From Pegea sp. RAD2-039 (lineage: Eukaryota > Chordata > Thaliacea > Salpida > Salpidae): a stretch of 64,000 nucleotides of DNA. The stretch covers positions 434,001-498,000 of the forward strand of contig JAQGEQ010000332.1 of the NCBI GenBank assembly GCA_034620365.1, given 5' to 3'. Below are positions 1,330-61,510 of the stretch, in pieces. Numbering within the stretch: the stretch's first letter is position 1; every line of letters starts with the position of its first letter. The notes below the pieces were generated by a model. It was not told where the DNA came from and did not search any database. It saw only the letters and a program-made list of their open reading frames with translations. Both the position numbers and the translations under genes were made by a program.

Positions 1330-1401
1330 TGCTCTATCCGGGAATTGAACCCGGCCCGTTTGCTTTCAAAGCAGCGCTGTTTACCATTCAGCTATAGAGA
1401 C
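1330..1401 (-). tRNA. tRNA-like gene in left arm, apparent UGA anticodon
   Basis: The 72-nt sequence has a good A box (TAGCTGAATGG), a perfect 5-bp T stem with the B box GGTTCAATTCC, a 4-bp D stem and a seven-base loop TTTGAAA, which would place UGA as anticodon. The anticodon stem is poorly paired and the acceptor stem is one base out of register. The short variable region does not fit a normal nuclear serine tRNA. It may be a tRNA-derived element or pseudogene and not a working tRNA. Near-identical and degenerate copies lie at 9613-9684 and 7281-7361. Confidence 0.5.
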
Positions 1402-6630: not shown

Positions 6631-6634
6631 AATC

Positions 6635-7006: not shown

Positions 7007-7082
7007 AATTTTTGAACTATAAAAATAATTTTATTATGATTGTTTATCTAAATATAAACTAAAAACTACCTTACACGATTTT

Positions 7083-7400
7083 TTCTTTTAAGTTTTAAAG
7101 GTTGTATTGTTGTAATAAATATAAGAAATGGGCAAAAAGATATCTGTTTACAACCGTTAAAATTGTTTTAGTTAACTGTGTACACAACAACATTTTGGTT
7201 GTGATTTTTATAAGATATTTGCTTTTAGTATGTAACATCTTAGGAGAATTTTGCCACCTGGTAAGGGTTAACACTGATTTTGCTCTATCCGAGAATTGAA
7301 CCCGGCCCGTTTGCTTTCAAAGCAGCTATACCATTTCAGTTTACCATTCAGCTATAGAGACATTTTAAAATCGTATAAAAGCTGCATAAATAGTTTATTT
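7083..7400. repeat. Third partial copy of the inverted-repeat arm
   Basis: Direct partial copy of 1101-1440, covering the tRNA-like gene and its flanks (landmarks tgtacacaacaacatttt and gccacctggtaagggttaac). It is more diverged than the two arms are from each other. Confidence 0.7.
7281..7361 (-). pseudogene. tRNA-like gene, disrupted copy
   Basis: Same element as 1330-1401, but the anticodon and D-arm region has been changed by an extra piece resembling a local duplication (AGCTATACCATTTCAG), making it 81 nt long. The T arm and acceptor 3' half are still clear. It is probably non-functional. Confidence 0.5.
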
Positions 7401-9612: not shown

Positions 9613-9684
9613 GTCTCTATAGCTGAATGGTAAACAGCGCTGCTTTGAAAGCAAACGGGCCGGGTTCAATTCCCGGATAGAGCA
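9613..9684 (+). tRNA. tRNA-like gene in right arm, apparent UGA anticodon
   Basis: Almost identical to 1330-1401 in the other arm: A box TAGCTGAATGG, D stem GCTG/CAGC, loop TTTGAAA, perfect T stem CCGGG/CCCGG and B box GGTTCAATTCC. The strong conservation of this block compared with much of the arm suggests selection, recent gene conversion or both. No close T-run terminator follows. The same doubts about the acceptor and anticodon stems apply. Confidence 0.5.
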
Positions 9685-12045: not shown

Positions 12046-13649
12046 TTACAGACTTATGTAATTTAAGGCAACTGGAGGAAGTACATGACTTGCTAGCTTC
12101 AAAAAACCAATCGAGGTTTTCGATGACTCGATGATGACGTCATTACTTAAGTTCATTATTAATAAAAATGAACAAAGTCCACAAAACGGTTGAAACCACT
12201 GAACCTTCGATTTTATAAATTGTTCTAAAAACGTCATATGTTAAATGATGCATTGTTAGCAAAAATAATCACCAAGAATTGAACGTTGTTCGGTTTCAGA
12301 TAATTTCTGAAGTTCGTCGAGCAATATTTTGTCTTCATTATTGATTATTGGCTGGAAATTTTTATTTAAAAGGTAATAGTCGTAATAAGAAACAATCATC
12401 AGAAGAATATTAGAAAAAGATCAGAAGAAGATCAGAAGAAGATCAGAAGAAGATCAGAAGAAGATCAGAAGAAGATCAGAAGAAGATCAGAAGAAGATCA
12501 GAAGAAGATCAGAAGAAGATCAGAAGAAGATCAGAAGAAGATCAGAAGAAGATCAGAAGAAGATCAGAAGAAGATCAGAAGAAGATCAGAAGAAGATCAG
12601 AAGAAGATCAGAAGAAGATCAGAAGAAGATCAGAAGAAGATCAGAAGAAGATCAGAAGAAGATCAGAAGAAGATCAGAAGAAGATCAGAAGAAGATCAGA
12701 AGAAGATCAGAAGAAGATCAGAAGAAGATCAGAAGAAGATCAGAAGAAGATCAGAAGAAGATCAGAAGAAGATCAGAAGAAGATCAGAAGCAATTCATAA
12801 AATTAAATGTTGAGTATCAAATGAAAACTTACTTCAAGTTGCTGGTTGCGTACTAAAAATAAAACTTTTATATTGTTAACAGTCAAATTTATGGCTTTGA
12901 TCTTACCATGACAAAATCGTTTAGGATTTTGGGAGTTGTTCCATTGATTTCCACATTTTTGATGTCGCAACTTTGATAAAAAGATATCTGATTCAGTAAA
13001 GTTATTGTAAACTTATTTTTAAGAACCTAATTTAACTTAAATTTTTATTCTAAAATTTGAGTGATTCTTAACATCATAAAATTAAATAGTTTTAAAAATG
13101 CATTCTGAAATGTTGAACCTTCTGATTTCCACCTGAAACAAAAATATGTAAAATTAATCATCAACAACCAACAGATCATCAACCACCTTTTACTTTTAGA
13201 AAATTTTCTATTTTCAATTTTGTATTCAATGGTTTTTCATACAGCTCTTGATATTCTTGAACCCTTGAAGACATCTCACTCTCATTACATGTTACTGATA
13301 AAATCAATAAGGTCATTAACGACCAAAAAGTATATTAAGTAGCCATTACTTTGAGATCCATCATTACAATACTCCATCACCTTAAAAAACCGAATGATGA
13401 CATCATCAGCTGATTATAGCAACCACAAACCTTGCATGTTGAATGGGTAGATTGACTCCTGACTATTTCATCTTGGTAAGGAAAGTCAATAGGAGCTAAA
13501 TTGTTCTGCCACGGTGATAATAAATCAATTACTTCTATCATAAGGCCTTTATCTGTCCAATAGATAGCTCTATTATCTTCAAGACGTTGCCCTATTAGTT
13601 GTGCGTTGATGATGTTACTATGGTCTTCGTTATTAGTTTCAAAGTCCAT
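12046..13649 (-). CDS. Split gene of unknown function, at least seven exons
   Basis: Exons with matching phases, from the 5' end: 13431-13649 (73 codons, ATG just after a TTTCTAG acceptor), 13350-13380, 13194-13294, then a poorly resolved exon near 13050-13130, then 12907-12970, 12833-12852, 12273-12351 and 12046-12224 with the stop. Introns of about 50-55 nt separate the first three. The protein starts MDFETNNEDHSNIINAQLIG. A later exon encodes KCGNQWNNSQNPKRFCH, which could be a small zinc-binding knot, followed by an acidic helix (DKILLDELQKLSETEQRS). The last exon may hide another intron, because GTAATGACGTCA lies inside it. No stops interrupt the resolved exons. I do not recognise the family. 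Confidence 0.5.
12419..12790. repeat. Perfect 11-bp minisatellite, about 34 copies
   Basis: The unit GATCAGAAGAA repeats about 33.8 times without a single visible mismatch. Because 11 is not a multiple of three, each plus-strand frame reads the same open 11-residue repeat, but there is no start codon. It lies within the intron between exons 12833-12852 and 12273-12351 of the minus-strand gene. On the sense strand the unit is TTCTTCTGATC: a pyrimidine run plus CTGAT, which resembles a branch-point sequence. Confidence 0.97.
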
Positions 13650-23129: not shown

Positions 23130-24683
23130 CTATAAGCGTAAATGAACTAAAAATGCTGGTTTTACCTGAGAAGTATTATACACGACGACTTCGTTACAGA
23201 GAACAGGTTCAGACAAATCTTCGCTCTTATTGACTCTTACATCCCCCACTTTAAACTTAAGGTCGATTCCATCAATTTTCATTAGTTTGCATTCATTTGG
23301 GTTATAATAACCTTCATGAAAAACACTATTATAAGGATCTGGTGGAGGTTTGTACTGATAAGATCTTCGTTTTTCAGGTAAACCCAAAATTACATTACAC
23401 AAAAGAACTATTACTTCCTCTGACTCTTTATCCCGTGAGAAATTGACAGCACATGATATAATATCTGTGAAGTAAAGGCCAGAACCATGGTTGAGCCCAT
23501 TAGCTGTGGCTTGCATGGGCGTAATCTGTAGTCCAGTTTTGAGAATAGAATTGATGTTTAAAAGCTTAGTTCCATGCCAAAGCAAATGACAATTTCCGAG
23601 ATCTTTGCAAAGGCTTACAAATTCAAAATCATGAATTTTGTCGTGTAACATAAATATGTTTAATAAAGTCGGATTATTGCATTCTGGTATTGTAATTTGA
23701 TTGATAGCTGACTCAATCATGGCTCCATAAAAGCTCTCTTTATCAACAAGCTTTATTTCAAATTTATATTTCTCATATGCTTGCATAGTATACTGTTTTT
23801 TTGACAAGCGACATGTGGGGTATGAAAAAGGTTCTTTTATAAAGTCAAGTAAACGGCTCATTTCAGGTATAACTCGACTTTTTCCGCCAACTATTAATGG
23901 AATATTAGATCCTTCTTGAAAACTAAGGGGAATTGCTTGATAAAAATTATTATTTAATTTATTCAATAGTTCCATGTTTGTGTTTTTCTGGTTATGTATG
24001 GAAACAAGACATTCGGCAGCTTTTTTAATTTCACAAGGTTCCAATCTTCCAAGCTCAGTTAATCCTTTTCTTTTGTCAGCCAGTAAATCCAAAGTTGTCA
24101 TCTTTGGTGTACAATGAGTCATAATTAGTTCTATAAGATCGATAATTGAAGGGCATAAATCAATGTCAGTTACTGCTGTAGGTAGTTCTGTTTTAGTCGT
24201 TCGAAGAATGTTAAACTTCATGAAGTTATGGTCAAAATTTTCCATGTTTTTTGACCAAGAATTTCCAGTTAAAGAAAAATAGGTGCTCTGAAAAAGTCTT
24301 ATGGCACCATTGAAAGTTGTTTCAATAGTCTGTATTTGTGAATGACATCCAATTCGTCCGGAACGAAAGTAGTATCTAATCTTGCTCTCTGTATAGTTAC
24401 CTATGATTGCAATTACAGCAAAATCATTGAGATTTGCCTCAACCCTAATTCTTGTTAGAGTCACGTTAAAAGGCGTAGATTCGTCAAGTCCAAGGACTTC
24501 ATATCCTTCTGGTAGGTATTTGTCATGTAATCCACTATAATATGGCAAGATCAGTTTTTCTAAAATTTTTCAGGCATAAATGATACTGTTCATTTTAATT
24601 TGAAAGTTTTACCCTGCTGATAGTTAAAAGACTCCAGTTTCTTGTCAAGATTCATTCTTTGTGATGGCTCCACCATAGAGACA
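23130..24683 (-). CDS. PARP2/3-like ADP-ribosyltransferase, upstream paralogue 1
   Basis: The main exon 23130-24559 is joined through a 53-nt intron to 24613-24683, where an in-frame ATG at 24676 would give about 497 residues. Domain order: WGR-like (about residues 14-110 counted from the Met at 24548), helical regulatory domain (about 130-245), catalytic ART fold (about 250-472). The H-Y-E triad is intact: His325 in LLWHGTK, Tyr359 in GSGLYFTD, Glu453 in NEVVVYNTSQVKP. Family members transfer ADP-ribose from NAD+ to proteins, usually in DNA-break signalling. The WGR signature reads FRSGRIG, lacking the tryptophan of FRSWGRVG in human PARP1. The gene is a tandem paralogue of 27552-30801 with the same intron before the WGR domain. 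The 5' end is not fixed; further exons may lie at 24699-25387. Confidence 0.92.
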
Positions 24684-27551: not shown

Positions 27552-30500
27552 TCACAAACTTAAAAGAACTAAGAAACTTGGCTTTACTTGGGAAGAATTA
27601 TAAACAATAGTCTCGCTGCACAGAGTGTTCCTACCAGAACGTTCATTACAAGTTGTTTTTACTTTACCAACTCTAAATAGAACGTCGTTATTGTTGACTC
27701 TAATCTTTCTTTCTTCATTTGAGTGATAAAAGCCAATTGTCTTATTGCAATTGAAAGGAAATGATGGTGGATCGCTTTGGCGAGTACTTACTAACTGTGG
27801 CAAGCCAACAACTACTTCACAGAGAAAAACAATAAAATCTTTTGCTTTTTCTTCTTTCGAGAAATTGATAGCACATGATATAATATCTGTGAAGTAAATA
27901 CCAGAACCATTATTCGTTGTAGCTTGGATTGGGTTGATTTGAAGTCCATATTTAAGGATAGAATTGATGTTTGAAAGCTTAGTTCCATGCCAAAGCAATT
28001 GACAATTTCCGAGATTCTTACAAAGGCTTTCAAATTGTTCATCTTGTTGTTTGTCGTGTAACATGAAAACGTTGCGTAGAGTTGGTTTACCATAAGCTGG
28101 TATCGCAGTTTTTTTTATAGCTGAGTTGATAGTTTCGAAATAAAAGCTCTCTTTATCGAGAAGCTCTATACCAAATTTATATTTCTCATATGCATGAGCA
28201 GTAAATTCTTTTTTTGTCAATCTACTAGTTGGGTAACAAAGAGGTTCCCTTATAAAGTCAAGTAAACGGATCATTTCAGGTAAAATTAAACTTTTTCTAC
28301 CAATTATTAAGGGAAGATTAGACCCTTCTTGAAAACTAAGTGGAATCTTTTGATAAAAATTATTATTTAATTTATTCAATAGATCCATGTCTCTATTTTT
28401 CTGGTTATATATGGAAATAAGACATCCAGCAGCTTTTTCAATTTCACAAGGTTCCAATCTTCCAAGCTCAGTTAATCCTTTTCTTTCGTTAGCTAGTAAT
28501 TCCAAAGTTGTCATCTTTGGTGTACAATAAGTCATAATTAGTTGTATAAGATCGATAATTGAAGGACATAAATCAGTGTCAGTTACTGCTATTGGGAATT
28601 CTATTTTAGTTGTTCGGAGAATATCAAATTTCATCGTTTTATATTCGAAATTTTCCAGGTTTTTCGACCAGCTGTTTCCAGTTAGAGAAAGAAAAGAATT
28701 TTTAAAAAGTTTCATAGCCTCATTTAATGATGTTTCAATATGTTTTATCTGTGAATAACATCCAATTCGTCCAGAACGAAAGTAGTATCTAACTTTGCTC
28801 TCATTCGGATTTTCTAAGATTTTAATTACAGCAAAGTCGTTTAAATTTGCCTCAACACTTGTTCTTGTTAAAATCACGTTATAAGACGTAGATTCGTCAA
28901 GTCCAAAGACTTCAAATCCTTCAGTTGCATAGCTGTCAGAAATTCCACTAAAATATGGCAAATCTCTCTGTTCTGAAATATAGGAAAAATTATATAAATT
29001 ATGATAGTTTTTCACAAATGTTATACCTTGTTGAAAGTTAAAAGACTCCAGTAAAGGTTTAAACTTCTTTCTTTGTGAAACTTCTAACGCAGGAATCGCT
29101 GAGGAAAATTATAAATCTCAATAGAAAGTACAGATAATTTAACATAACTGAATATAAAAAAAAATCCTTTCTAAGTATAAGTTACACAGTATTTTTTAGA
29201 ATAATTATATTATTTAAATATTACAAGTGAAAGTGATATTATATTATGATTTGAAGTATAATTTGGACACTGATTAAAAACCATCTTAGAGAGTACAAAA
29301 AACAGAACATTATGAAAAATAATGCTTCTAATGAAAACTTTTTAGTATCTTCTAAAAAACTATTAAAAGAAATTATAATATTACAATAAAAAGTAGTCCC
29401 ATAAAAATGTTTAAGAATGATATTACAAATTTTTTTAGGATATACTACTTTTAAAACTGATAAGTATATATAGACAAAATAAAAGATTCCTATTTATTTT
29501 TGCAAGTCATTTATTACTAAAATGCAAAGGAAGGTACCTCTTGCTGAGACCATTTCTCACAAATAATACATATTTTATATACTTAAAGTAGAAATATAGA
29601 AAAAAAAGATGTAACACATGGCATTTCAGTAGTCCTCACAACATATAGCAGTGGAAAAATTTATAGAAAGTAAATTTTGTAAACAATAATAATATAATAA
29701 TATAAAAAAGTGAAAAAAGTCAGTTTAGAAATGATGATGTTGGCAATTTTATAACGGTTTAACTTCTACTTAAACAACAGGAGTGATTTTGGCATAAAAA
29801 TGTCTAATGGCAGCTGCTTCCAAGTACTTATGTGCAGTTTGAAAAAAAATTTCTCTGATTAATGTTCAAAGTGATATGGGCTTATTTAGACGTAAGGTGT
29901 GTCGTCTAAGGAGGAGTAATGGAAAAAAAGCATCGAAGTGAAGGTCAATTAAAATGTGGATGATTTTGAAAATAAGTATAAAGCCGTATTTAATTTGTTG
30001 AATTTCTAAAGTATCTTAATTTATGAAGCTAAGATGATATTAATAAATGTTGTATTTAACAGTACATTTCCTTCATACCATTCTCGTAAACATTGCATAA
30101 TTACATGAATTGAAATATTATTTTTAGTTAGAGATTACAATATAGCTTTTTTTTTCAAATTAATACTATTCTTGGTTTTAAAATTATTAATATTTTATTA
30201 TTTTGTTCTATAGACCTGAATCAAATCAATTGAATTATTATTTCCAATATGATAGAGTTATTAAATTTAAAAAGAATAGTCTTCAGTATTCATCAAGATT
30301 ATTTAATAATTAAGTTTAACTAGTGACATATTGACATATAATAACTACACTTTCTTAGATAAACTAGTATTCACTTTTTTTTGTCTAATAAAAGAAAATA
30401 AATTAAAAAGAAATGAAAGAGAATAAGAATTATCTTACCACAAATTGATTCACTATTCTGTGAGTCATCTACATCACTTACATCTTCTATAAAAGCTAAA

Positions 30501-35599: not shown

Positions 35600-37980
35600 T
35601 AGATTATATAAGAAAAAGAATGAAAATCACAGTTTAGAAATGACAATGTTGGCAATATTATAACGGTTCAACTTCTTCTCGAACAATACGAGTGACTTTG
35701 ACATAGCAATGTCTGGTGGCAGCTGATTCCATGTATTAATTGTAAAGTAAGAGAAAAAATTTTTTCTAACCAATGTGCTAAGTGATATAGTCTTATTAAG
35801 GTGTGTCGTCTGAGCTGGATAAATACATTTTATATATCGATCTAGGACCGAAGATCCTCGTTGAATAATAAATCTATTGATGGAGTATTGGTTCAACAAA
35901 CTTATAGCTGGTTTACGAGAAAAAGTTATAAATTCAGACTTTGTGGGCTGGATTCTGAGCTGCCAATTTGTAGACCATTTTTCTAAAGTGTTTAGTCCAG
36001 TTTGAACTTTTGAAGGATTACAAGATAATAGCTTGATATCATCTGCATACATAAATACTCTGTCATCATCTACTGCTACTAATCTTCGGATGAGTCCTTC
36101 GATGAAAATTAAAATGAGAATGGAACCCAGAACAGAACGCTGTGGATTACCAATAATGATTTGACTAGAAGTAGATAAAGATCTTTCTACACGAGTTTGT
36201 TGGGTTCTACCTGATAGGTAATCTTCAATCCACTGTAAGATAAAGCTGTTGATTTTTAAGTTTTTCTAATACAGTAACGAGCTTAGTGTGTGGGGCAGAA
36301 TCAAACGCTTTAACAAAATCGAGATATATAATGTCAGAGGGAGTGCTACTTTCGTAATGGGCTGTAAGCTCATGATGGTGCTCCATTAAATGACTTGTCG
36401 TATGAGTTCTGCAGATAACTTAAGTCAGCGAAACTGGTCTGTACTTAAGTGCAGTGTTTTGGGATCCTTTTTATGAATTGGAGTAATAATAGCTTTCTTC
36501 CAAATTTATGGAACTCTCCGTCGCCTCAGAGTGATGTTAAAGAGTAGCGATTAAGGTAGTGATAAACAGGAAGTAGGTTTTCTTACAAACAAAACTGGAA
36601 TCTGATCTGCGGTGTTGGAAACTGGTGATTTTAAAGAAGAAATATATTTAGATACCATATTGACCGTTATTTCAGTATCTACCATCTCAGAGACATTAGT
36701 AAGAATGTCGGAGTAGGTATAAGAAGGTTTCAGTAATAAGAACAAATGTGAAATCTTGGGATTGAAAAAGAGCTCTCACTTGAAAACTTTTGTTAATAAT
36801 CGACCTTGCGTTGAAGAACATACCTAATGTGATTGAAGAATTGTCTTTTTAATGCTTGTGAGACTTGATGATGGGCTTCTATAAATTGATATCTTGGGTA
36901 TTTACAATTGTGTCCGGAGAGAGTTTAAAAAAAGAAATTATGGGTCCAGTGATTATTTGCTACTTCCGTTTTTTGAAAAAAACATTGATAATTCTCAAGG
37001 CCCATGGTGGACCTCGAACTTTGTATTTAAAATCATTTGGTTATTCCTTCTACTTTTGGTTATACGCTTCTTTTAGAAGACACTTATTTTCTAAGCGATC
37101 ATCTTCACACATATTATGTGCTACTCTAATGCCCTCGAATTTTTTCTCAAGCCTTAGCTTATAAGGCTTGGCAAGAAGCTTGCGTGGATACTTTCAAAAG
37201 GATATTTTCAACGGTCTTTGACGATCTAAGCTTGTTGCTTCAAGTCTACTCATTAATACCTTTGGAATGTCCACAAAATTACGGCTTTGAGAGCACATTT
37301 GATTAAAAAATTCACTGTCATCATCTTTATCAGTCTCAGAGACATTAAATATGATGACATTGTTTTTCTCTGTCCTCACGGTCTACAGTGAGTATTTTGT
37401 GCGTGTCGGTGACCTTCTTGGCAAGAAAATACACAATATTTGCATTTTTGTCAGAACCGGGATCACCGACCACCGAGGTCCATGTGACTTGTTTCTTTGT
37501 GGAGGCATTCAATTCGTCCATTGATTTGGACAAACTAGAAACCTTCTCATAACTCTTGGCAACATCTTTGGCAATTTCCGATTTAAGTTTTACTAATTTA
37601 GCAGATACAGATTTGATGATGTCTGATAATAGGTTTTCATCAGAATTGGATGAGGGAGCTGTTGTGTCCATGGTTCTACTTTTAATGAAAAAATTTAATT
37701 TAAATCCCAGTTGCTTCATCTGGTTTTTATCAAACATTCTTAAATTTTCCTGCTCACATCACTACAGGTGAGATGAAAGCAGGAGAGACATTTAAAGCAT
37801 TCAATTAAATAGATCCTCTTGTTGCCAGAACTTCTTGATAAGAAAGTTTTTTTCAAGGAACATAAACAAAAAATTGACATCAAGCCGACCTGGAAACAAT
37901 CTTTGAGAGATTTTCGATATAGTTGAAAAAGACTTTTTTTGCCAAGATGATATATTGAGATGGATTGTTCCAATCTGCCG
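35600..37980 (-). mobile_element. LINE retrotransposon (CR1/L2-like), internally deleted
   Basis: From its 5' side: ORF1 begins with a PHD-like finger (37740-37973, CFKCLSCFHLTC), then a coiled segment and the motif NNVIIFNVSETD (37194-37737, one frameshift). ORF2 starts with the endonuclease N-terminus (about 36745-36835, NARSIINK..LITETF) but passes almost directly to the reverse transcriptase (KYISSLKSPVSNTADQIPVL, ITPIHKKDPK, VLGSILILIFI and the catalytic YADD at about 36050). Most of the endonuclease is missing. The C-terminal block FFSYFTINTWNQLPPDIAMS is typical of CR1/L2 elements, and a further deletion lies just before it. Several frames are broken, so the copy is dead. 3' fragments of the family lie at 13770-14140, 29510-29960 and 47620-47970. 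Confidence 0.85.
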
Positions 37981-41150: not shown

Positions 41151-41236
41151 ATCCCTCCTCTTCATCTTTTGTAACTTTTTGAACATTTCTGAATAATGAA
41201 ACGTCTGCTGGATATCCTTTTCACTTTGTTCAACTT

Positions 41237-41600
41237 GTGAAGCAGAGAGCTTTTCGTAATGATGAATTAAACAGGTTTGTCTCAATACCTGAACATTTTA
41301 CTTTCTCGTGGGCGTTTGCTGTACAGGTCAGTCCCGTTCTCTTTCTGATTTTTATTGATATCTTTATGTTTAAGAGCGTAGTAGCTATTGAAATGTGTCT
41401 AGCAAGATTGCGGTCTAATTCATAAGATTTAGAATTGAAATGAAAACTTCTGTTTACGGGTTTAGGACCAAGTATTCGTAAATCATCATTGATGACTTCA
41501 AAACTTTCTATTTTCGAGATTCACAAAAATCTTTTTCAGCATGCTTTAAATGGATGATCTAAATTAGTTGAGCAGAGTAATAAACACATTTAATTTGACT
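41237..41600. repeat. Dispersed repeat, copy 1
   Basis: Matches 61116-61480 over its whole length, and 57650-57790 over its second half (landmark tttacgggtttaggaccaag). It is less AT-rich than its surroundings. The plus strand has WAFAVQ.SP.L.LI.I.IFMF and the minus strand has HSLA/RNLARH-like peptides in the copies. Neither strand gives a family I recognise. Likely a relic of a host gene or element spread with the neighbouring repeats. Confidence 0.7.
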
Positions 41601-47619: not shown

Positions 47620-47970
47620 CTAATTAAACCTTAATAAGCCCATATCACCTGATATGTTGATCAAAGAAATTTTTTCTTACACCACACATTTAGAACTTGG
47701 AACCAGCTACCATCAGACATTGTTATATCAGATTCACCAGTGCTGTTCCAGCAAAAGTTGAACTGTTTGATATTACCAACACTTTCATTTGTAATTTTTT
47801 TTTTCTTATTTGTTGTTAATATTTTATGTAATAGTTCACTGTTATATCTTTTGAAGACAACTGAAAAGTTACGTCATAAATTTTTAACATTGTATATTTT
47901 AAATTTTATTTGGTTATGCTCAAGTCAAAACAGGATTTGTTATAAAGGTGTGAATGGATGAAACGTTTTT
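47620..47970 (+). mobile_element. LINE 3' fragment, plus strand
   Basis: Reads RTWNQLPSDIVISDSPVLFQ in the frame of the LINE reverse-transcriptase C-terminus (the element at 35600-37980 has NTWNQLPPDIAMSKSLVLFE). The match extends upstream through the ttaataagcccatatcacct block. It is the opposite orientation to the other copies. 5'-truncated and inactive. Confidence 0.8.
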
Positions 47971-48205
47971 TTTACTCATGAGCGAGCTTACTAAATAGAA
48001 AAGTAATTTAATTCTCTTTCACATTATTCTTTCTAATACTCTTTTTTGGTGTATTATTTAGTGTTTTATTTAGAAGTGTAATTAAATATGTTAAAGACAA
48101 ACAAAATTACCTAATGACATCATCACGAACCAGTCATGCAATTTCCTTCATTCATCACTGAATTATTGCAAGACTTCCAAAGTTAGTTGATAAAATTTAA
48201 GATCA

Positions 48206-48325
48206 ACATCTTTGGGATCAATGTATCAAAATCAGTTGGAGGTCTAAAGTAGATTTTTGACGCTGCTCTATCTAATATCAATAATTTGGAGCATTTTGCG
48301 ATAGCTTCAGGTGGTGATGACGTGA
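48206..48325 (+). pseudogene. MSH2 pseudogene piece, C-terminal exon only
   Basis: Reads FGINVSKSVGGLK, stop, then NNLEHFAIASGGDD, the same exon as 48955-49070 in the larger piece next door. It runs without a gap into the more N-terminal MSH2 exon at 48350, so two copies were joined head to tail. Confidence 0.75.
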
Positions 48326-48339
48326 TCGTGTTCCGGAAA

Positions 48340-49400
48340 CTTTCAACTCTTCTTCTCTTCAATGAGATCATCTCTGAGCTTGTTGTTCCTCTCACGTTCA
48401 CGAAAACTGCAGTGACATCATCCACTTCCTCACGTCAGACCTCAATTGCATAAAATTGGGGATGAGTTGCTCCGATTGAAGAAGGGCCGACATTCGTGTA
48501 TCAAACTTCATCATCACATGTATTTTATCCCTAATGACGCGTTGCTACATGGCAACGACCACAGCTTCATGGCTATCACTGGATCAAATATGGGCAGCAA
48601 ATCGACCTACATCTGACAAATTGGCATCATTGTCGTAATGGAAAAAATTTTTTTGGTTAATCAGGTGAGAAGATAAGCACGGTGATGATGTAACTAATAC
48701 TTTGTGACGTCACAGGCCAAAACAATTTCGACTTTACTGGGCGAAATGGTGGAAACGTCGACAATTTTGAGTTCAGCAACTGACAACTCTCTCTTTATTA
48801 TCGATGAACTCAGTAAGAGAGTGATGACGTCACATGATCACGTGTCTAGCCTCTTCGCGACTTGCACGAGGTGCAGCCAGGTTTGTGGCTGTGGTAACGT
48901 CATCAGCTTGAATGATGCATGTTGTGATGTCACAGGATCATGTGATCGAAGCTTTGGGATCAATGTAGCAAAATCAGCTGGATTACTAAAGAAAATGATT
49001 CACCTTGCTCTTTCAAATATCAATAATATTGAGCTTTTTGCATGGCTTCTGGCGATGATGACGTCACCAAATCTCTCAGTTTTATTCTTATTTTTAATTT
49101 TCCTATTTTTTTTTATTTTCGCAGAATGGTTTTGAATTGATGAAGTATTTTATTGATGACGTTTCATTGTTCAAATAGAATACTGTGACGTCAGCAGAAG
49201 GAGGTTAGCGCTTGCCTTTAGTGACAACCCGCAGACCTCACATTTTGCATCTTCATCCGTGGTGGCTAATAAAAAGAGGTGAATATCTAAGACAGATATG
49301 TTCTGTCTAAAATTTACAATTGTTGTCATGTTTTTTCACATAGGTTTTTCGGTCAGCACTAGATTCCATAACAGTTGTTATTAAACAAAAACCTATTTCC
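48340..49400 (+). pseudogene. MSH2 pseudogene piece A, ATPase half
   Basis: Successive exons match the C-terminal half of the mismatch-repair ATPase MSH2: LNEIISEL (clamp end), [30 protein letters not shown] running into the Walker A region GSNMGSKSTYI (normally GPNMGGKSTYI) then a stop, then ISTLLGEMVETSTILSSATD with Walker B LFIIDEL. The GRGTSTYDG signature is absent; after DEL the sequence goes straight into a GTAAGAG donor. Near the end comes SCDRSFGINVAKSAG, matching the MSH2 stretch CDQSFGIHVAELAN. Small introns survive (for example one ending GTGACGTCACAG), so this is a duplicated genomic piece and not a retrocopy. MSH2 partners MSH6 or MSH3 in recognising mismatches; this copy cannot act. 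Confidence 0.88.
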
Positions 49401-49990
49401 GTTAAAGTAAAAATTTATGAAAAAACAATCAGCTTTTAATGAAATTATATTTGGGATAAGTTGACTAGTTAAAGAAAACTGTTTTAGTTACTTTAAAAAT
49501 CTTAAAACTTATTCATGAAACCTAATTTAGATAATTATTTTTCTTATCAATTTTAAATGTTTTTTAGTATACAAAATAAAATAGTTAAGTAATTACCAAC
49601 CCTTATATATTTCAGTTTTGAAAACTAACAAAAGATCATTTTTAAACATTTGCTAAATAAAACTGTTTCAGAATATAACTTTGCTTTAATAATGCTAATT
49701 GTGTAACACTGTATAGTTTTCTACAGAGGTTTTGTAAAAAAAATTGTAACCAAAAATATAAAAAATAGAATTTGTCGGTCCATTTGTTTAATCTATTAGC
49801 AACTCTACGCTGCTTTACCTTGTTTACAAAAAATCGTTGTTTCTTGTTACTTTAGAGCAAATACAAACAAAAACCGTCTGTGCATAGATAACTAAAAATA
49901 AGATAAAAGAAGCAATTAACATAAAGAAGCTAAAAAAGTTATTTCTGTGAGATAACAGATAGTAGATAAATATTTTTGACATATTTTAGT
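49376..49990. other. AT-rich segment present in copy A side only
   Basis: Compared with piece B (joined directly at about 57560), roughly 610 bases are extra here. They could be an insertion in A or a deletion in B. No coding or terminal repeat was seen. Confidence 0.55.
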
Positions 49991-49999
49991 TTGGAAACT

Positions 50000-50460
50000 T
50001 TTAATATTACTTTAAAAAAACTTTCAAAAAAGTTTGAAGACGTCATAAGCTGATTGAAACTTTCTTGAATCGGTTTCCAGACATCAACAGGTATCTAATC
50101 TTTTTTTTCATCTCATCTTCTTCTCATAACGTAATTATTTCAGATTAGCAAATAAGTTTCATCGGAAGATTGCTAGTTTGAAAGATTGATTCCAGATGTA
50201 TTAGGTGTAACGTCCTCATATGCGCGCAAATATGACGTCATCTGTTCTTCGCAGGCTGTTCAATTGATGCGTTAAATCTGTAAGTGTTTCAATGAATATG
50301 CAAATGAGGTCGATGAAACACTTTGTGATGTCATTATCGACAAATTCCAATCTCCTTTACGATACCTATCGACCAAATTAAAAGAAGATTGTGTAAATCG
50401 TTGAATCAACCCTCGATTATGAGCAGGTATGACGTCGTTAAAGTGTGATGTCATCACTAT
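50000..50460 (+). pseudogene. MSH2 pseudogene piece, lever-domain exons
   Basis: FLNRFPDINR, a 51-nt intron, then LANKFHRKIASLKD match the MSH2 lever region (human LLRRFPDLNRLAKKFQ). A further exon reads AVQLMR, stop, ICKCFNEYANEVDETLCDVI and RYLSTKLK. In an intact gene these exons precede those in piece A, but here they follow it, so order is scrambled. Stops interrupt the frame. Only the first part (to about 50090) recurs near piece B, at 57570-57655. Confidence 0.8.
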
Positions 50461-50539
50461 AACTGTCGATTGATGCTACAAGTCGACTGATTTAGAAATC
50501 AAAGGAGTGAATGAAATTGAGACTATATTTAGGATTGTA

Positions 50540-51960
50540 GATGGATGACTATTTCCAATTTTGAAGAGTCTTCAGGATGAATCGCAAAGAATAAAAAATG
50601 ATCACGAAAAAAGAAGAATAAAGATGCTATTTGTTGGATTTACAGTTTTGTCCAACTATAATATTGGTGAAATAAGAATACACCAGTTGGCCACAATTTG
50701 TTTACAGAAATTGATTTCATTATTTAATAAAATAGTCAACAAACTTATTTACTTATGAATTTGTCAGTAGTAATGATAATATGCATCAAAAACTTAAAAA
50801 TTTATAAAAGTTTTCAAACGATAAAATTTCGAAATAATCTCACCAGATTTTTTATAACATAGATTAAATGACGTCTATTAATATGTCATCTGACAACATC
50901 TTGTTTTATCTTTGTTAAAGTTTTACAGAGATCAAAAGATGTTGCTTTGTTTACATAACCTTAAGATGATCTTTAACAAAACAGTTTTAATAATATTCTT
51001 TTGAATTGTTTCTTTGCAGTTGGCAATATGTCTGAAAGAAATTGAATTCAGTTACCAATTCTGATCTATAATTTTATTAACAATCAACAAATTTTATAAA
51101 GGTGTTTCATTAAATTAACTTTCTTTTCATAGAACATATTGTAAGAAAATATGCTAAATTAAATACAATCTTTATGTTATTGCAAACTGTTTTGTTTGAC
51201 AACTTAGCTTGGTTAATTTTATGATTAAATGAATTAGAAAACACATATATATATAAAGGTTTGCCTTTCAGTTAACTTAGGCTAATTGTATCTTATTGAA
51301 TTTCTTTTTACGAAAAATATAACTTCTTTATTCACTTCAAATCTGTATCTTGCATAATGGTCATCACTTTTTTATAAAATCTCAACGTGAGACATATCTG
51401 TAGCTATTATCAAATAATTTTGGTTGCAAAATCGAAATAATTATAATAACTTTATAGAAAACCTTAATAAGTTAACTTATTTTTGTATCTTCTAAAATAA
51501 TTTGTTTATGGAGCATATGGAGTTATTTAACCGACGTTTTGTTAATCTAAAAATAGTTTGTTTTTTTGTAGAAAGTAATCACTTTTGCTTATCAAAACAA
51601 TAAAAGAGAAACAGATGAAAAATAGAAAGATACCAATGCAACTAAAAATTTCATTTATTCCTAGAAAATATTTTAAGTACAATAACTTTAATTATTACAT
51701 TTCTAATAATTATTTGCATTAGACGCAATTCAAAACAAATAAGTAAACTGTTTTTATCAGTTAACTATTTAACTGAATCAATGATTGAATGATTAATTAT
51801 TCAATGATTGATCAAATATTTTTTAAACAAAATAATCAAATATTTCTTATTTATTAGAAGAAAAAACAATAGGTTTTGTAAAATTAAAGGATTGTTATTC
51901 AATCAATACTTTCTATAAATAAGTAAATGTTACACTAGACCAAACACGTGACTAAGAGAG
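50540..51960. repeat. Direct repeat left of the CAF1 gene
   Basis: Matches 54440-55830 through most of its length (landmarks tatttgttggattta, ggagcatatggagcta, caaataagtaaactgttttta). The two copies bracket the CAF1 gene in the same orientation. A third partial copy is at 60985-61115. AT-rich, no coding potential; function unknown. Confidence 0.85.
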
Positions 51961-52286
51961 AGAAAAAAAAGAGAAAGGTTCTTTTGAGAGTATAAGGTTT
52001 ATATACTCACTAGTAACTGCCGGCTTGGTTAGTTTTGTAACATATTTTTTAGAAAGTTTTAGCAATTTTTGTTATTATGGTATTTTTATATGCTTGTACA
52101 GTTAGTTATTTTCAAATCAAGAAGATTAGTCATTAGTAGATTTAGAAATTTTTTTATTATTGTGTTGTTACTTCTGACTGCAAAACTAAATAGACTTGTA
52201 GAGCTTACTTCAAAGAGTTATTGAAATATTATAATTATTAAGCTGAAAACTTTAATTTCTAGAAATTGTGTTTTAAAAATCTAAAA

Positions 52287-53568
52287 ATGAGTTTTAGCAA
52301 ACCTGTCTCGCAACAACACCATACTGTTGAGGTTTATCAAATGAATTTAAAGCAAGCATTCGCCCAGATAAAGCTTGCTTTAATGACATACAAAGTCATC
52401 TCAATTGTAAGTTTGTAATTATTAATAACTATTTGTAACTTTAAAACTTTTAAACTTAAGGATCTCTGCAATTATTTTATTTTTAGGACACGGAGTTTCC
52501 CGGCGCAATATTCAAAGAACCTAGATTCTTACCCCCGGAACAGAAATATCTTCATATTAAGAAAAATGTTGATGCTGTTAAGTTGATACAATTAGGAATC
52601 ACTTTAATGAACGAAAAGGGTGAATTGGCAACACCTGTATGTTGTTGGAATTTCAATTTCCAGTTCAACATCAGGTATCTAGGAAATGATTTAAATAATT
52701 TTTAATGTAAATGTTATAGAATAAAAACCATTAAATTTATTAATGCTTGTACAGACAAGATGCAAGCTGCCAAAAGTCCATAGAGTTTCTTCAAAAAAAT
52801 GGTGGAATTAATTTTGCTGTGCTTCCTGCTCTTGGAGTGGATATAGAAGACTTTAGAAAATTTGCTGTTGATGCAAAGCTTTTCTATAGCGATTGTAACA
52901 CTTTTCTGGTCTTCCATGGGTATGTATATTTCATTTGATTTAATTAATCTTTTATTACTTTAATCCCAAAATATATACAAGGAAGCTAAGCTAACAAAAA
53001 AAATTGGGAATTTTACCAGGCAATACGACATTTTTTTCCTGTTGAAAGTCATTGCAAGATCACTTCCGGCTACTAGAGAAGAATCACAAATCCTAATTCG
53101 TTTCATTTTTGGAAAGATAATTGATTTGAAGTACATGCTTTTACACGATTACAATGTAAGTTTCGGATGTATGCAAAATATATCCTGATTTTTAACAATT
53201 ATTTAAAATCTTAGCGTAAAGGGTATGGATTACAAAGACTAGCTGATGAATTAAATGTTTCTCGGATTGGTATTGCACATTCAGCTGGTAGTGATAGCAT
53301 TTTGACTGGAAGAACTTTTTTTGCAGCCCGTGATGTAAGTATGCTATTATAAATACAAGGAGTCTATATAAATTAACTACATGCTTATTATAAAAAGAAT
53401 TTTTATATTGAAATATATAACTTGAGAAATTAAAACTTAATTTAATTTAGATTTTATTTTTGGCAGATATATCGTCTGTTTGGAAATGATCAAATACAAG
53501 CACACGAGTTGAAGATTGCTGGCTATGACTCATTTTGTTTTACAAATGGCAAACACTGCTATTATTAG
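52287..53568 (+). CDS. CNOT7: CAF1/POP2-type deadenylase (CNOT7/8 homologue), six exons
   Basis: Exons 52287-52406, 52487-52674, 52755-52919, 53020-53155, 53215-53334 and 53467-53568 join in phase to 276 residues (human CNOT7 has 285). The DEDD nuclease residues are in place: Asp41 and Glu43 (IDTEFPG), Asp161 (FHGQYD) and Asp230 with His225 ([12 protein letters not shown]). The family is the poly(A)-specific 3' exonuclease of the CCR4-NOT complex, which shortens mRNA tails in the cytoplasm. This copy is divergent: HSGYDFGYL is HGQYDIFFL and QHQAGSD is AHSAGSD. Introns are 80-132 nt, and an AATAAA lies 27 nt after the stop. It may be the only CAF1 gene or a divergent paralogue; the symbol marks family, not proven orthology. 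It lies between two direct repeats and scrambled MSH2 pieces. Confidence 0.93.
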
Positions 53569-53594
53569 TGAAAACAATTTTACTTTTGTATGTA

Positions 53595-53600
53595 AATAAA
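53595..53600 (+). terminator. Probable polyadenylation signal of the CAF1 gene
   Basis: AATAAA shortly after the stop codon. The hexamer is common in AT-rich DNA, so only position supports it. Confidence 0.45.
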
Positions 53601-53604
53601 TTGT

Positions 53605-54435
53605 TATGTGATCTTTATTCTATAGCGTTTGATTTGTCATTAAAACACTCTTAATTTAATTTACAGGAAATTAAAAAAAATATCAAACAACTTGCTTTTA
53701 GTTATTTTTTGTTTTTTAAACATAGGATCCTACATACAAAATATTGTTATTTTCATAATTTTAAAAAACAGATATCGATTGAGATTGCTTTGTTAAATGT
53801 CACCTGATAGTCATAAAGGGTAAAAACTCTCTGCATATATTTAAGAGTTTTTCAAATTTTTTAAAAGTAAAATAATTGTTTTAGTATAACAGATAACCTT
53901 TTAGTGAGGAATAATTAAACAGAAGTTAAAATTTTCCCAATGGATGACGTCAATTATCTTAAAAACTTTTTATTTAAATAAAGATATATGTCTAGTGAAG
54001 ATTTCTGTAGTAAAATTGACAATCAATCAAACTAACTGACAGAATAACGCTATCTTAAAAGCAAATGACAGAGTACACACGACTGATGGTGTAGCTAAGG
54101 GCAAATTTGTAATAGTCTTATTTGATTATGTAACTAAGAAGTGGTTTTTAATCTACCAGAGAACCGATGACAGGTCAATATTTCATTTTTAATTACATTC
54201 TACTTTAAGTAAAATGATTGTTTCTAATTCATTTTTCAATAGTAATTGCAATAGGCTCATGATGAAAACTATTATACTGAGTTTTAAAGGGTTTCTAAAC
54301 GTTAGGTATTTGCTCATAGCAATGAATGAAATATCAATAATATGAATTTTGATCTATCGTTGTTTTTTAAAAAAAAAAAAAAAATTATAATACCTTAAGT
54401 AACTGTTAACTGTTATACGCTTGCGAATATTCTAA
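53605..54435. other. AT-rich spacer after the CAF1 gene
   Basis: No gene seen; holds one TGACGTCA at 53945-53952 and a long A-run near 54368-54383. Confidence 0.5.
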
Positions 54436-54439
54436 ATAA

Positions 54440-55830
54440 TATACAGAATTGCAAAGATGAAAAAATGATCCAAAAAAGATTAATGAAGATGGTATTTGTT
54501 GGATTTAAAGTTTCGTCCAAATATAATTGAGGTGAACTGTGAATACATAAGTTGATCACAATTTATTTACAGAAATTCAATTCAGTATCTACTTATCAGA
54601 TGATAATTTACAAAAGTAATTTTTGCGGTAAGTGTATCAAATATAAAAGTGTTTTATTGCAATTCATGTCCCTTATTATAAGACAGAAGTGTACATATCT
54701 AATAAAATAATGAGCGAGCTTTTTTTATATGAATTTATCACTACTAATGAGATCATGCATCAACAATCTTCAAAAACTCTAAAAGTTTGTAAACGTTAAA
54801 CGTTTTGAACAAATCTCACCAGATTTTTTTATGTTAATTTAAATGACGTCATATACTATGTCATCTTATACCATCTTATTTTATGCTTATTAAAATTTTA
54901 GAGAGATAAAAAGAAGTTGCTTTGTTTACATAACTTTAAGATGATCTTTAACAAAACACCTTTAATAATATTCTTTTATATTTTATACTTTTTTGTTATA
55001 AGACTAGCTGGTAAATTAAATATAATCTATTTTTTATTGCGAACTGTTTTTTATGACAAATTAGCTTGGTAAATTTATGATTAATTGAAATAGCAATCAT
55101 AAATATATATAAATGTTTGCCTTTCAGTTAATTTAGGCTGATTTTATCTTATTGAATTTGTTTTTACCAAAACTATAATTTCTTTATTCATTTCAAATCT
55201 GTTTCTTGCATAATGTTCATCGGTCTTTTATCAAAATCTTAACGTGAAAAATAACTCTAGCTATTATCAGAAAATTTTAGTTGCAAAAATGATAAACTTA
55301 TAATAGCTGTATACTAAACTTTTTTAAAGTTAAAATTAACTTATTATGTGTCTGCTAATATCAATTGTATATGGAGCATATGGAGCTATCCATTTTATTT
55401 TTTGTTAGTCTAAAAATAGTTTTTTTTTTTCTAAAAAGCAAACACATTTGCTTATCAAAACAATAAAAGGGAAGCAGATGAGAAATAGAAAGGTACCAAT
55501 TCAACTAAAAATGTCATTTATACTTAGAGTGCAATATAAGTAAAATCAATTTCATTATTATTTTTCTCATTTATATTTGCATCAGACACAGTTCAAAAAC
55601 AAATAAGTAAACTGTTTTTATAAGTAAACTATTTAACAGAATCAATGATTGAATAATTAATAATTTAAACTTTGATCAAACTTTTTTTTAACAAAATAAC
55701 CAAAGGTTTGTTATTTAATAGAAGAAAAAACAATAAGTTTTATACAATTAAAGAATTGTTTTCTAAACAATACATTCTATATCTAAGTAAAGGTTACAGT
55801 AGGACAAAACCAAATTGTTTTTGTGTCTAT
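54440..55830. repeat. Direct repeat right of the CAF1 gene
   Basis: Second copy of 50540-51960. Small indels and substitutions throughout show the duplication is not recent. The two copies start about 3.9 kb apart. Confidence 0.85.
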
Positions 55831-55834
55831 CTAA

Positions 55835-56540
55835 ACCCTACAAAAAATTAGAAATTCAAGCATAAAGGACATTACTTATCTAAAAGTTAGTTCGTTTCTT
55901 TTGATAAAATGTAGAAAATCTACAACCAAATTATTTTATCTCTAAAAGGTTTTCGAAATTCAATTAATAAAGACAAAATTTTCCAAAACTAATTTAGATT
56001 TTATTGATACTTTCTTTCTGAGGAGAATATTTTCAAATGATTATTTTATCATTTATAATATAATATACTAATCTTGATGTTAGAAAAGTGAAAAGCAGCT
56101 TGAAGCTGATCTATCTTGTAAAGCTTAATCGTAACTACCTAATTCAAACTAAATTAATTGCATTTTGTAAAATGAGTAAATTGAGATTACTGAGTTGAGT
56201 TTAGTTGTTTTAAATATCAAAAAAATTTGATACCAGAAACATAAACTAACCTGAATAACTATAAATATCATTATCGAAATTCTAAAAAATAAAGGGTAAA
56301 GTTTAACGTTCGTCATACTGGTTTATACCACTTAGGGGTGAAAAAGGTGATAGAAAATTTCCTTTATTGACCCAATAAGTTGTAGAGAATTTAAAAATAA
56401 GAATTAAAACGTTTTTAATCTGTCAAAGTGATAAACTATCAAAGCTAAAGAGACTGAGACGATGCTCATAGCTATCATATTTATTTACAAGCTTCATGCG
56501 CATCACTCTAGTAAATGTTGCTAAAATAGATAGGATACTT
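55835..56540. other. AT-rich spacer
   Basis: Nothing recognised. Confidence 0.5.
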
Positions 56541-56544
56541 TCAA

Positions 56545-57560
56545 CTCTTTCTCCTTTTCAATGAGATCATCTCGGAGCTTGATGTTCTTCTCACGATCAC
56601 GACAACTGCAGTGACATCATCCACTTCCTCACGTCAGACCTCATTTGCATAATAATGGGGATAAGTTGCTCCGATTGAAGCAGAGCCGACATCTATGTAT
56701 CGAACGTCATCTTCACATGTCTTTTATCCCTAAATGACGCATTACTACATGGCAACGACCACAGCTTCATGGTTATCACTGGACCAAATAAAGGCAGCAA
56801 ATCGACTTACATTCGACTAGTTGGCGTCATTGTCTTAATGGCCTAAGTTTTTTGGCAATCAGGTGAGATGATATGCACGGTGATGATGTAACTATTACTT
56901 TGTGACGTCAGAGGCGAAAAGAATTTCAACTTTTCCGGGCGAAATGGTCGAAACGTTGACAATTTTGAGTTCAACAGCTGACAACTCTCTGTTTACTATC
57001 GATGAATTCGGTAAGAGAGTGATGACGTCACATGATAACGTGTCCACCCTCTTTGCGACTTACACGAAGTGTAGCCAGGTTTGCTGCTATGGTGACGTCT
57101 TCAGTTCGAATGAATCATGTTGTGACGTCACAGAATCATGTGATCGAAGCTTTGGGAACAAAGTAGCATGATCAGTTTGATTTATATAAAAGATTATTCC
57201 CTTGCTCGCTCAAATATCAATAATATTGAGCATTTTGCGGCGGCTTCTGGCGGCGATGACGTCACCAAATCTGTCAGTTCATTTCATATTTTTAATTTTT
57301 TTAATAAATTTTCGCAGAATGGTGTTAAGTTGATGAAGAAATTTCATTGATGACGTTGCATCGTTCAACTGGAAGACTGTGACGTCAGAAGAGGGGAGTT
57401 AGTGCTTGCCTTTAGTGACCACCTGACAGACCTCACATTTTGCATCTTCATCCGTAGTAGCTAATAAAAAGAGGTAAATATCTAGGACAAATATGTTTTG
57501 TCTAAAACTTACAATTGTTCACATGTCTTCTCACAGAGATTTTCGGTCAGCACTAAATTC
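56545..57560 (+). pseudogene. MSH2 pseudogene piece B, ATPase half
   Basis: Direct copy of piece A with independent damage. It keeps [20 protein letters not shown] (Walker A region, with Arg where A has a stop), VETLTILSSTADNSLFTIDE followed by a GGTAAGAG donor, and CDRSFGNKVA. The FIPND exon has a one-base insertion and one intron has lost its AG. An intron ending TTTTCGCAG precedes NGVKLMKKF, matching the MSH2 C-terminus. The last 85 bases of homology (57570-57655) correspond to 49990-50090 near piece A. Both pieces look like duplicates of one older MSH2 segment. Confidence 0.88.
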
Positions 57561-57649
57561 CATAACAGTTATTATTATTACTTTAAAAAACTTTCAAAAA
57601 AATTTGGAGACGTCATAAGCTGATTTCTTAAATCGGTTTCTAGACATCA

Positions 57650-57790
57650 AGTCTTAAAATTGGGTTTACTGGTGTAGGACCAAGTACTTTTAAATCATCA
57701 ATGATAACTTCACAAATTTATATTTTCGATATTTACAAAAACCTTTTCTGCGAGCTTCAGTAGGTTGCTAGTAAATCACCTGTACCAAAG
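57650..57790. repeat. Dispersed repeat, copy 2 (partial)
   Basis: Joined directly to the MSH2 lever fragment. Matches 41440-41560 and 61330-61470; after it, tattatgtttgaaacgct matches 61477-61500. Confidence 0.7.
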
Positions 57791-60984: not shown

Positions 60985-61115
60985 TGCAACAAAAACTTTC
61001 ATTTATAGTTAGAGTGTATTATAACTAGTATAAATTTCATTAATATATTTCTCATTATTATTTCCATTAGACTCAATTCAACAGAAGTAAGTAAACTGTT
61101 TTTATCTGTTTTTAT
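60985..61115. repeat. Third, partial copy of the CAF1-flanking repeat
   Basis: Matches 51635-51765 and 55495-55620 (acaatgcaacaaaaactttca, tccattagactcaattcaa, agtaaactgttttta), then switches at once to the 41237-type repeat. Confidence 0.75.
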
Positions 61116-61510
61116 GAAGCAGAAAGCTTTTAGTAATTATGAATCCTTGACGATTGTCTCAATACCTAAAAAATGTACTTACTTGTGGGCGTTTGCTGTA
61201 CAAGACAGTCCCAGTCTCGTTCTGATTCTTATTTATATATTTATGTTTAAGGAAGGAGTAGCTATTGATAGGTGACTAGCAAGACTGTGGTCTAATTCCT
61301 TAGATTCAAAATTGAAATGGAAACTTCAGTTTACGGGTGTAGGACATAGTACTTTTAAATAATTAATGGTGACTTCACAACTTTCTATTTTCAATTTACA
61401 AAAAAAACCTTTTTCAGCGAGCTTCAGTAAATTGTTATTGAATCAGCTGTATTAAACCTCATACATATAGCGCGGAAGAGTTATTATGTTTGAAATGCTG
61501 CATCATTTTA
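61116..61510. repeat. Dispersed repeat, copy 3
   Basis: Full-length relative of 41237-41600 (gggcgtttgctgtacaaga, tttacgggtgtaggac) with a longer right end shared with 57770-57860. Confidence 0.75.

Follow-up and report, generated by a model that had tools for sequence, protein, structure and literature searches.

Here we describe a stretch of 64,000 bp (the window) on contig JAQGEQ010000332.1 of the salp Pegea sp. RAD2-039 (positions 434,001 to 498,000; contig C43 in the following), which carries pieces of the eukaryotic mismatch repair gene MSH2 (MutS homolog 2), a CAF1-like gene, and fragments of the gene for tripeptidyl-peptidase II (TPP2). The features are listed in Table 1. The animal's own MSH2 locus (L022 = C257:632001-642000) was used as parent reference.

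Table 1. Features in the window. Parent coordinates refer to L022; identities are those to the parent unless stated otherwise.
Feature	Position	Strand	Parent coordinates	Remarks
MSH2 relic, exon 6 / intron 6, left edge of array	48111..48211	+	5380-5480	83% identity
MSH2 exon 15 relic, out of order, array edge	48210..48323	+	7581-7694	88% identity
MSH2 exon 12, ATPase start, unit 1	48324..48641	+	6690-7006	88% identity
MSH2 exon 13 region, unit 1	48658..48845	+	7089-7276	88% identity
MSH2 exon 14 end to exon 16 start, unit 1	48862..49198	+	7491-7831	86% identity
Stretch common to units, after MSH2 breakpoint 7832	49199..49383	+		sequence comparison
MSH2 exon 7 end	50040..50127	+	5602-5689	92% identity
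MSH2 exons 8-9 and flanks, lever	50129..50474	+	5816-6160	87% identity
MSH2 intron 10 / exon 11 piece	50511..50619	+	6340-6447	84% identity
R module upstream of CAF1	50579..51944	+		second copy at 54446-55808
CAF1-like gene, 276 aa, six exons	52287..53568	+		open frame, CAF1 domain; exons 52287-52406, 52487-52674, 52755-52919, 53020-53155, 53215-53334, 53467-53568
Second R module	54446..55808	+		~81-82% identity to 50579-51944, in three pieces
MSH2 exon 12, unit 2	56533..56846	+	6700-7011	89% identity
MSH2 exon 13 region, unit 2	56857..57043	+	7090-7276	86% identity
MSH2 exon 14 end to exon 16 start, unit 2	57060..57393	+	7491-7832	85% identity
MSH2 lever-half stub, ~40 nt, unit 2	57610..57650	+		83% identity to MSH2 copy on C260 (L023)
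TPP2-like fragment inside array	61009..61275	+		recognised by eye (L011 5009-5275)

MSH2, CAF1-like and TPP2 sequences

The parent locus holds an intact-looking MSH2 gene of 16 exons (CDS 2736 nt, 911 aa) with GT-AG borders in all 15 introns. An earlier sequence-only reading of the window had asked whether a whole MSH2 persists; the assembly search located this open copy on C257, which rules out a loss of MSH2 from the genome. The encoded protein is closer to Msh2 (8.8e-223) than to Msh3 (5.9e-65), so another MutS gene can be dismissed as the source of the pieces.

The pieces lie where that reading had placed them and share 83-92% DNA identity with the parent (best E 7e-118). Their small introns survive and are 86-90% identical to those of the parent, which excludes a processed or retroposed pseudogene and bears out the proposed origin by DNA duplication. 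For a peptide of one piece (A), all six solved-structure matches at E up to 0.001 were Msh2, the best of them (1.4e-7) covering residues 2-40 only. Compared with an MSH2 gene, the pieces on C43 span only parts of parent 5380-7832, are without most of exon 14 (mostly absent in all ten units described below), and contain stops, one of which is visible in frame in the exon 9 piece; they are not genes. The exon 13 region of unit 1 presumably corresponds to Walker B.

The CAF1-like gene between the pieces, which had been called intact, has an open frame over all six exons. It carries a CAF1 domain (PF04857, 9e-21), matches SPCC18.06c/Caf1 (1.4e-43) and CNOT7 (2.4e-42), and has retained D41, E43, D161, H225 and D230, which we take to be the DEDDh catalytic motif. 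The domain and these residues are shared with the CAF1/POP2/CNOT7-8 deadenylase family; deadenylase activity and binding to NOT1/CCR4 may be shared as well.

TPP2 fragments are found in the array and also as repeats of ~0.85-0.92 kb on other contigs. The DNA around 61009-61275 is related to window positions 41235-41546. A phmmer search with window 41183-41422 gave no TPP2 match; the same segment reached 1.9e-5 and 25.2 bits with Pfam TPPII_GBD, under the cut-off of 27.3 for that domain. Other array peptides matched Pfam weakly, the best hit (0.016) being a TPPII domain.

A head-to-tail array

The window holds only the left edge of a head-to-tail array of ~107 kb, which runs from window position 48.1 kb to about C43:589.3 kb and thus extends for another ~91 kb beyond the window. 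It comprises ten units with MSH2 pieces as well as 13 copies of the CAF1-like gene, two of which are truncated. All ten units have the same order of ATPase-half pieces, the same internal gaps and the same end breakpoint: parent 6690, 6700 or 6836-6838 to ~7022, followed by 7089-7276 and by ~7490-7832. A lever half (parent 5602-6072 or longer) then follows in nine units; the exception is unit 2 (u56), with its short stub. Self-comparison of the array was plus/plus throughout, bar one faint minus bin. With head-to-tail units and common breakpoints, this is a tandem array, and the MSH2 pieces on C43 have a common origin.

These results alter the picture drawn from the window alone. The head-to-tail joint of a late to an earlier exon is real (48323/48324; parent 7694 to 6690) and, among the ten units, is found at the left edge of the array only; the second ATPase half does follow at a spacing of 8.2 kb. 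The order that no intact gene could have is likewise observed, but it is explained by a repeat junction, the two halves lying in gene order across CAF1. What was wrong or incomplete is the view that a single gene had been scrambled locally about an unrelated one: CAF1, in 13 copies, is part of the repeated segment itself, and the ATPase and lever halves recur in 10/10 and 9/10 units, respectively. CAF1 repeats together with the MSH2 pieces, which rules it out as an unrelated bystander.

Related MSH2 pieces were found on at least six other contigs (C65, C79, C106, C148, C260 and C355, among the matches listed); matches of parent 1200-1309 on C284, C94, C156, C22 and C14 were not counted, since they lie on a simple repeat within intron 11. 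Leaving out the contig of the parent, at least six of the seven contigs with MSH2 pieces also carry CAF1-like copies (among the matches listed); on C79 and C148, the two lie tens of kb apart and on opposite strands, again among the matches listed. Spread to several contigs requires more than local unequal crossing-over, which counts against the explanation favoured below.

It is extremely improbable that the array or its joints are artefacts of assembly. The CAF1 coding sequences on C310 and C355 are identical, as haplotig or duplicate contigs would give, but segments of different units diverge by ~3 to 15 percent and carry private indels, and the end breakpoint 7832 recurs on C65 (among the matches listed). 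A transposon (Helitron-like or Pack-type) that captured and spread pieces of MSH2, TPP2 and CAF1 would account for the presence of three genes, introns included, in one repeated segment and for its dispersal over several contigs. We nevertheless consider this very unlikely, given the head-to-tail units with common internal breakpoints and the near absence of inverted matches of at least 80 nt from the array; the R modules contain two inverted repeats of 33-36 nt, which fall below this threshold, and TIRs under 80 nt may be present. A search of 100 kb of C43 against Rfam gave no match at the gathering threshold, and the sequence had no match in a plasmid collection, which is not an informative test. 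A search of the assembly for COX1 found no match; its Wnt genes indicate an animal.

Decay and conservation within the units

In the MSH2 pieces, the exons of each unit have 2-12 indels, and stops number 3-9 per unit. Since, in addition, their exons are kept no better than their introns (identity to the parent 0.885-0.906 vs 0.864-0.900) and pooled pN/pS is 0.81 over 45 pairs, they look neutral; as a point against this, dN/dS ranges from 0.37 to 1.58 among pairs of pieces and from 0.41 to 0.78 against the parent, the latter figure including the constrained parent branch. Their decay is near-neutral, and with their broken frames they appear to be pseudogene pieces. Part of the damage, including several frameshifts, is common to groups of units and part is private, so the assertion that the pieces had decayed separately was only half right. 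The pieces provide an internal neutral clock for the CAF1-like copies in the same units.

Open frames were found in 13 of 18 spliced CAF1-like copies: in 6/11 full-length copies on C43, the other five being broken, and in 7/7 copies from other contigs, which were picked from the best matches. The DEDDh motif is complete in eight of the 13 open copies and lacks at least one residue in five. Y occupies position 225 in some copies. In 76 of 77 pairs, dN/dS was 0.05-0.44. Four older pairs, which are not independent and one of which compares C43 with C65, showed an excess of synonymous changes (p 1.6e-4 to 1.9e-7), and exon identity exceeded intron identity in five in-family pairs (0.924-0.949 vs 0.840-0.887). 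The family thus bears the mark of past purifying selection in its coding sequences. No synonymous excess was detected among the three most similar copies, including that of the window (8/26 summed over three pairs, p 0.14), so present selection on the window copy is at most putative. The gene had been called live; its open frame and the past selection on its family support this in part.

Alternatively, the whole array might be neutral. CAF1 and the gene pieces would then have spread in the manner of satellite DNA, and the open CAF1 frames would belong to copies that are simply young or that result from gene conversion. The five broken and two truncated copies on C43, the youngest trio, which is indistinguishable from neutral, and the TPP2 repeats on other contigs agree with such a scenario. 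It is nonetheless unlikely in view of the synonymous excess in the older pairs, C43-C65 included, of the low dN/dS, and of CAF1 exons that are better conserved than introns, unlike the MSH2 pieces of the same units.

All five CAF1 copies with a full or partial R module upstream are open, compared with one of six with TPP2-type sequence (Fisher p 0.015); because one and the same exon-4 deletion is found in four of the five copies that are broken, this association is not independent and is given no weight. Four open CAF1 copies on C43 have a lever-half MSH2 piece ~1.7-2.2 kb upstream; among the matches listed, such a piece also precedes two copies on C65, one on C106 and that on C355 by ~1.8-2.4 kb, as might be expected if the pieces were retained as regulatory RNA or upstream control sequence of CAF1. 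Such a role is highly improbable: the pieces show similar drift in exons and introns, no such piece lies within 3 kb of open copies 111494 and 115000, and the common position is accounted for by shared descent.

Proposed origin and known parallels

We consider it probable that the array arose by chimeric segmental duplication and unequal crossing-over, with selection acting on the CAF1-like copies and MSH2 and TPP2 hitchhiking. A truncated DNA duplicate of MSH2 (~parent 5365-7832) would have become linked to fragments of TPP2 and to a CAF1-like gene of divergent sequence. Head-to-tail multiplication of this chimera, for which unequal crossing-over is the probable mechanism, would then have yielded the C43 array; related sets lie on further contigs. 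Open reading frames in CAF1-like copies would have been maintained by selection, with the pieces of MSH2 and TPP2 as non-coding passengers; those of TPP2 are presumably dead as well. The exon order in the window would reflect the junction of neighbouring units and the irregular left edge, and the dosage or function of CAF1 may be the reason why the array persists. What appears to be the wreck of a gene would thus be the record of a multiplied chimeric three-gene segment, one part of which was kept open while the MSH2 part decays beside it.

The Drosophila Sdic cluster is a comparable chimeric tandem gene cluster in that pieces of different genes were fused and then amplified head to tail; the product here, if any, would be an unfused CAF1-like gene, and the MSH2 pieces look dead. 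The ampliconic Slx/Sly or Stellate families resemble the array in having many copies, part open and part broken. Nothing in the sequence of the C43 array points to sex linkage, testis expression or drive. It is quite unlikely that a genetic conflict (germline, sex-linked or drive) is raising the dosage of a lineage-specific deadenylase-like family through its multiplication, on chromosomal stretches that are partly a satellite of TPP2 and MSH2 scraps; in that case, the scraps may also give rise to small RNAs directed against MSH2 or TPP2. The titles and abstract openings of the literature searched mention no such array, which does not prove its absence. For now, the array illustrates a known process well and does not represent a new mechanism; if the CAF1-like copies are germline-expressed, it would be, to our knowledge, an uncommon animal case of deadenylase amplification.

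Compared with canonical CAF1, the amplified family is a divergent side family, and a locus on C15 is nearer to the canonical gene: its exon 2 matches fission-yeast Caf1 at 62%, compared with 36-41% for the copies on C43, C65, C106, C310, C355, C74 and C79.

Structure and origin of the array

The window occupies positions 434001-498000 of its contig, here called C43, in an assembly of 105.7 Mb and 387 contigs. Wnt matches at 27 exon-level places in the assembly point to an animal. A whole-genome search for the MutS V domain yielded 27 matches; 15 of these fall in the 482-580 kb stretch of C43, each in plus orientation. The region C43:470001-600000 was retrieved, and window positions 48001-57700 were compared against C43:434001-600000. 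In window coordinates, repeated CAF1 and MSH2 segments reached about 153 kb, and self-comparison placed the limit of the array at about 155.3 kb, with matches in the plus orientation and one faint minus bin. The array is head-to-tail and about 107 kb long; the window holds only its first 16 kb. MSH2 units, consisting of ATPase-half pieces (parts of exons 12-16) followed in nine of ten cases by a lever half (parts of exons 7-11), are spaced 6.0 to 19.5 kb apart on C43, and CAF1-like copies sit at varying distance between a lever half and the following ATPase half.

The ten C43 units start at position 6690 (the first unit of the window), 6700 (two units) or 6836-6838 (seven units) of the parent, the animal's own MSH2 (counted along C257:632001-642000). 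They run to 7006-7022 and continue with 7089-7276 and with about 7483 or 7501 to 7831 or 7832. In nine of the ten, the ATPase pieces are followed by a lever half from parent 5602 to at least 6072 (to 6447 in four of them); that of the window's second unit is a stub of only about 40 nt. The parent gaps at about 7023-7088 and 7277-7490 are common to all ten units and the breakpoint at parent 7832 was found again on contig C65, and therefore a single truncated, rearranged MSH2 copy was amplified. The C43 pieces thus share a common origin and were multiplied head to tail. The array probably grew by unequal crossing-over and selection in favour of CAF1 copies, a well-supported and ordinary process whose cast of genes is unusual.

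The sequence-only reading had described an order of pieces impossible in an intact gene. This order is present, but is explained as a repeat junction: followed from lever half through CAF1 to ATPase half, the MSH2 exon order is normal. The joint reported at about 48325-48350 was located at 48324; together with the relics at 48111-48323 it forms an irregular left edge of the array, found at this place only among the ten units.

The whole MSH2 gene and decay of its copies

The animal retains a whole MSH2, as had been asked: a spliceable gene on C257 with 16 exons, 911 codons and no stop (boundaries placed by hand, with an open frame among the criteria). All 15 introns are GT-AG, and 13 are 47-55 nt long. 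Against solved structures, the protein matched Msh2 (8.8e-223), MutS (4.8e-71), Msh3 (5.9e-65) and Msh6 (2.1e-56); the Pfam domains MutS II, III, IV and V were over their cut-offs and MutS I slightly under. A damaged second copy lies on C260, and MSH2 pieces also occur, among the matches listed, on C65, C79, C106, C148 and C355.

Projected onto parent codons, each C43 unit carried 2-12 exonic indels and 3-9 stop codons. Separate decay of the pieces, as proposed earlier, agrees with indels private to units, but several others are common to groups of units (near parent 7160, 5868, 5613, 6787 and 6434). The pN/pS of the pieces was 0.81 pooled over 45 unit pairs (individual pairs 0.37 to 1.58) and 0.41 to 0.78 against the parent. 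Exons of the pieces matched the parent at an identity of 0.885-0.906, introns at 0.864-0.900. Decay appears near-neutral, the pieces evolving nearly like neutral sequence.

The C257 gene contains 20 copies of the palindrome TGACGTCA (parent 5384-7819; 9 in exons, 11 in introns, none before exon 6), including twice in each of five introns of about 50 nt. In a 147 kb sample rich in MSH2 copies, it had the top z-score among 8-mers with at least 12 occurrences (54 vs 3.7 expected). The window contains 16 (0.27 expected), in the region 48705-57387, and 10 kb around an MSH4-like gene named by eye (L024) contain 9.

The CAF1-like family

The intact CAF1 gene claimed between the MSH2 pieces was recovered, with six exons, 276 codons and an open frame (PF04857, 9e-21; fission-yeast Caf1, 1.4e-43). 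C43 carries 11 full-length and 2 truncated CAF1-like copies. Eighteen copies were spliced (11 from C43, three from C65, one of two from C106, and one each from C310, C355 and C74), of which 13 were open, namely six among the 11 from C43 and all seven from other contigs, the latter chosen among the best matches. The coding sequences of C310 and C355 are identical and may represent a single locus. Outside the spliced set there are at least 11 more exon-3 matches (three on C79 and a single one on each of C106, C148, C153, C161, C184, C326, C349 and C350). A locus on C15 is closer to canonical CAF1, and the amplified genes are therefore a side family and not the housekeeping gene.

Purifying selection acted on the CAF1-like copies in the past. 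Among the open copies, dN/dS was 0.05-0.44 in 76 of 77 differing pairs (the exception, 1.54, is a very young pair), the synonymous excess was significant in four older pairs tested, and exons were better conserved than introns in all six pairs compared. The youngest three copies, including that of the window, had no significant synonymous excess (8/26 changes, three pairs summed, p 0.14). All five DEDDh positions (D41, E43, D161, H225, D230) are kept in 8 of the 13 open copies; five have Y at 225, and those of C310 and C355 also K at 43, so predicted catalytic competence differs between copies. Most interest attaches to why a deadenylase-like gene is multiplied in an animal, and to a possible location of the arrays on a conflict-prone chromosome.

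TPP2-derived repeats and other features

Spacer-joined peptides from the unit at 69.9-71.6 kb matched only one chain among solved structures, tripeptidyl-peptidase 2 (TPP2; E 0.0013). All three PF12580 matches in the assembly fell at C19:274232-274873, and TPP2-like exons were found at C19:272076-272899; the TPP2 pieces of the array likely derive from this locus. A TPP2-like peptide, partly taken from the array, gave 155 matches, those listed being on C43, C65, C106, C19 and 31 other contigs. On seven contigs chosen for regular rows, match spacing was 841-918 bases in 27 of 30 cases and about double in three; the rows are a tandem repeat built from a TPP2 exon region. CAF1-like copies also occur on the satellite-bearing contigs C310 (32 kb), C349, C350 and C153. 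Leaving C15 and C21 aside, at least 10 of the 14 contigs that carry CAF1-like copies also bore the repeat among the matches listed. One TPP2 fragment of the window, at 41183-41422, lies 7 kb upstream of the array and outside it, in DNA related to array parts.

Features of the window and contigs bearing the TPP2-derived repeat
Feature	Position	Strand	Basis or remark
tRNA-Ser(TGA)	window 1330-1400	-	score equal to copy at 9614-9684
tRNA-Ser(TGA)	window 9614-9684	+	score equal to copy at 1330-1400
Short-period tandem repeat, RRSEEDQKKI-type peptide	window 12370-12856	+	all three plus-strand frames open
Two adjacent long open frames, PARP catalytic domains	window 23130-24569, 27552-29108	-	Pfam; WGR, PARP_reg partly under cut-off
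LINE reverse-transcriptase remnant	window 35627-36265	-	RVT_1 4.3e-11
TPP2 fragment	window 41183-41422	+	Pfam; TPPII_GBD E 1.9e-5, under cut-off
LINE reverse-transcriptase remnant	window 47653-47961	+	by eye; directly left of array edge
Repeats of about 0.84-0.92 kb with TPP2 exon, gene-derived satellite	C304, C310, C311, C333, C349, C350, C153
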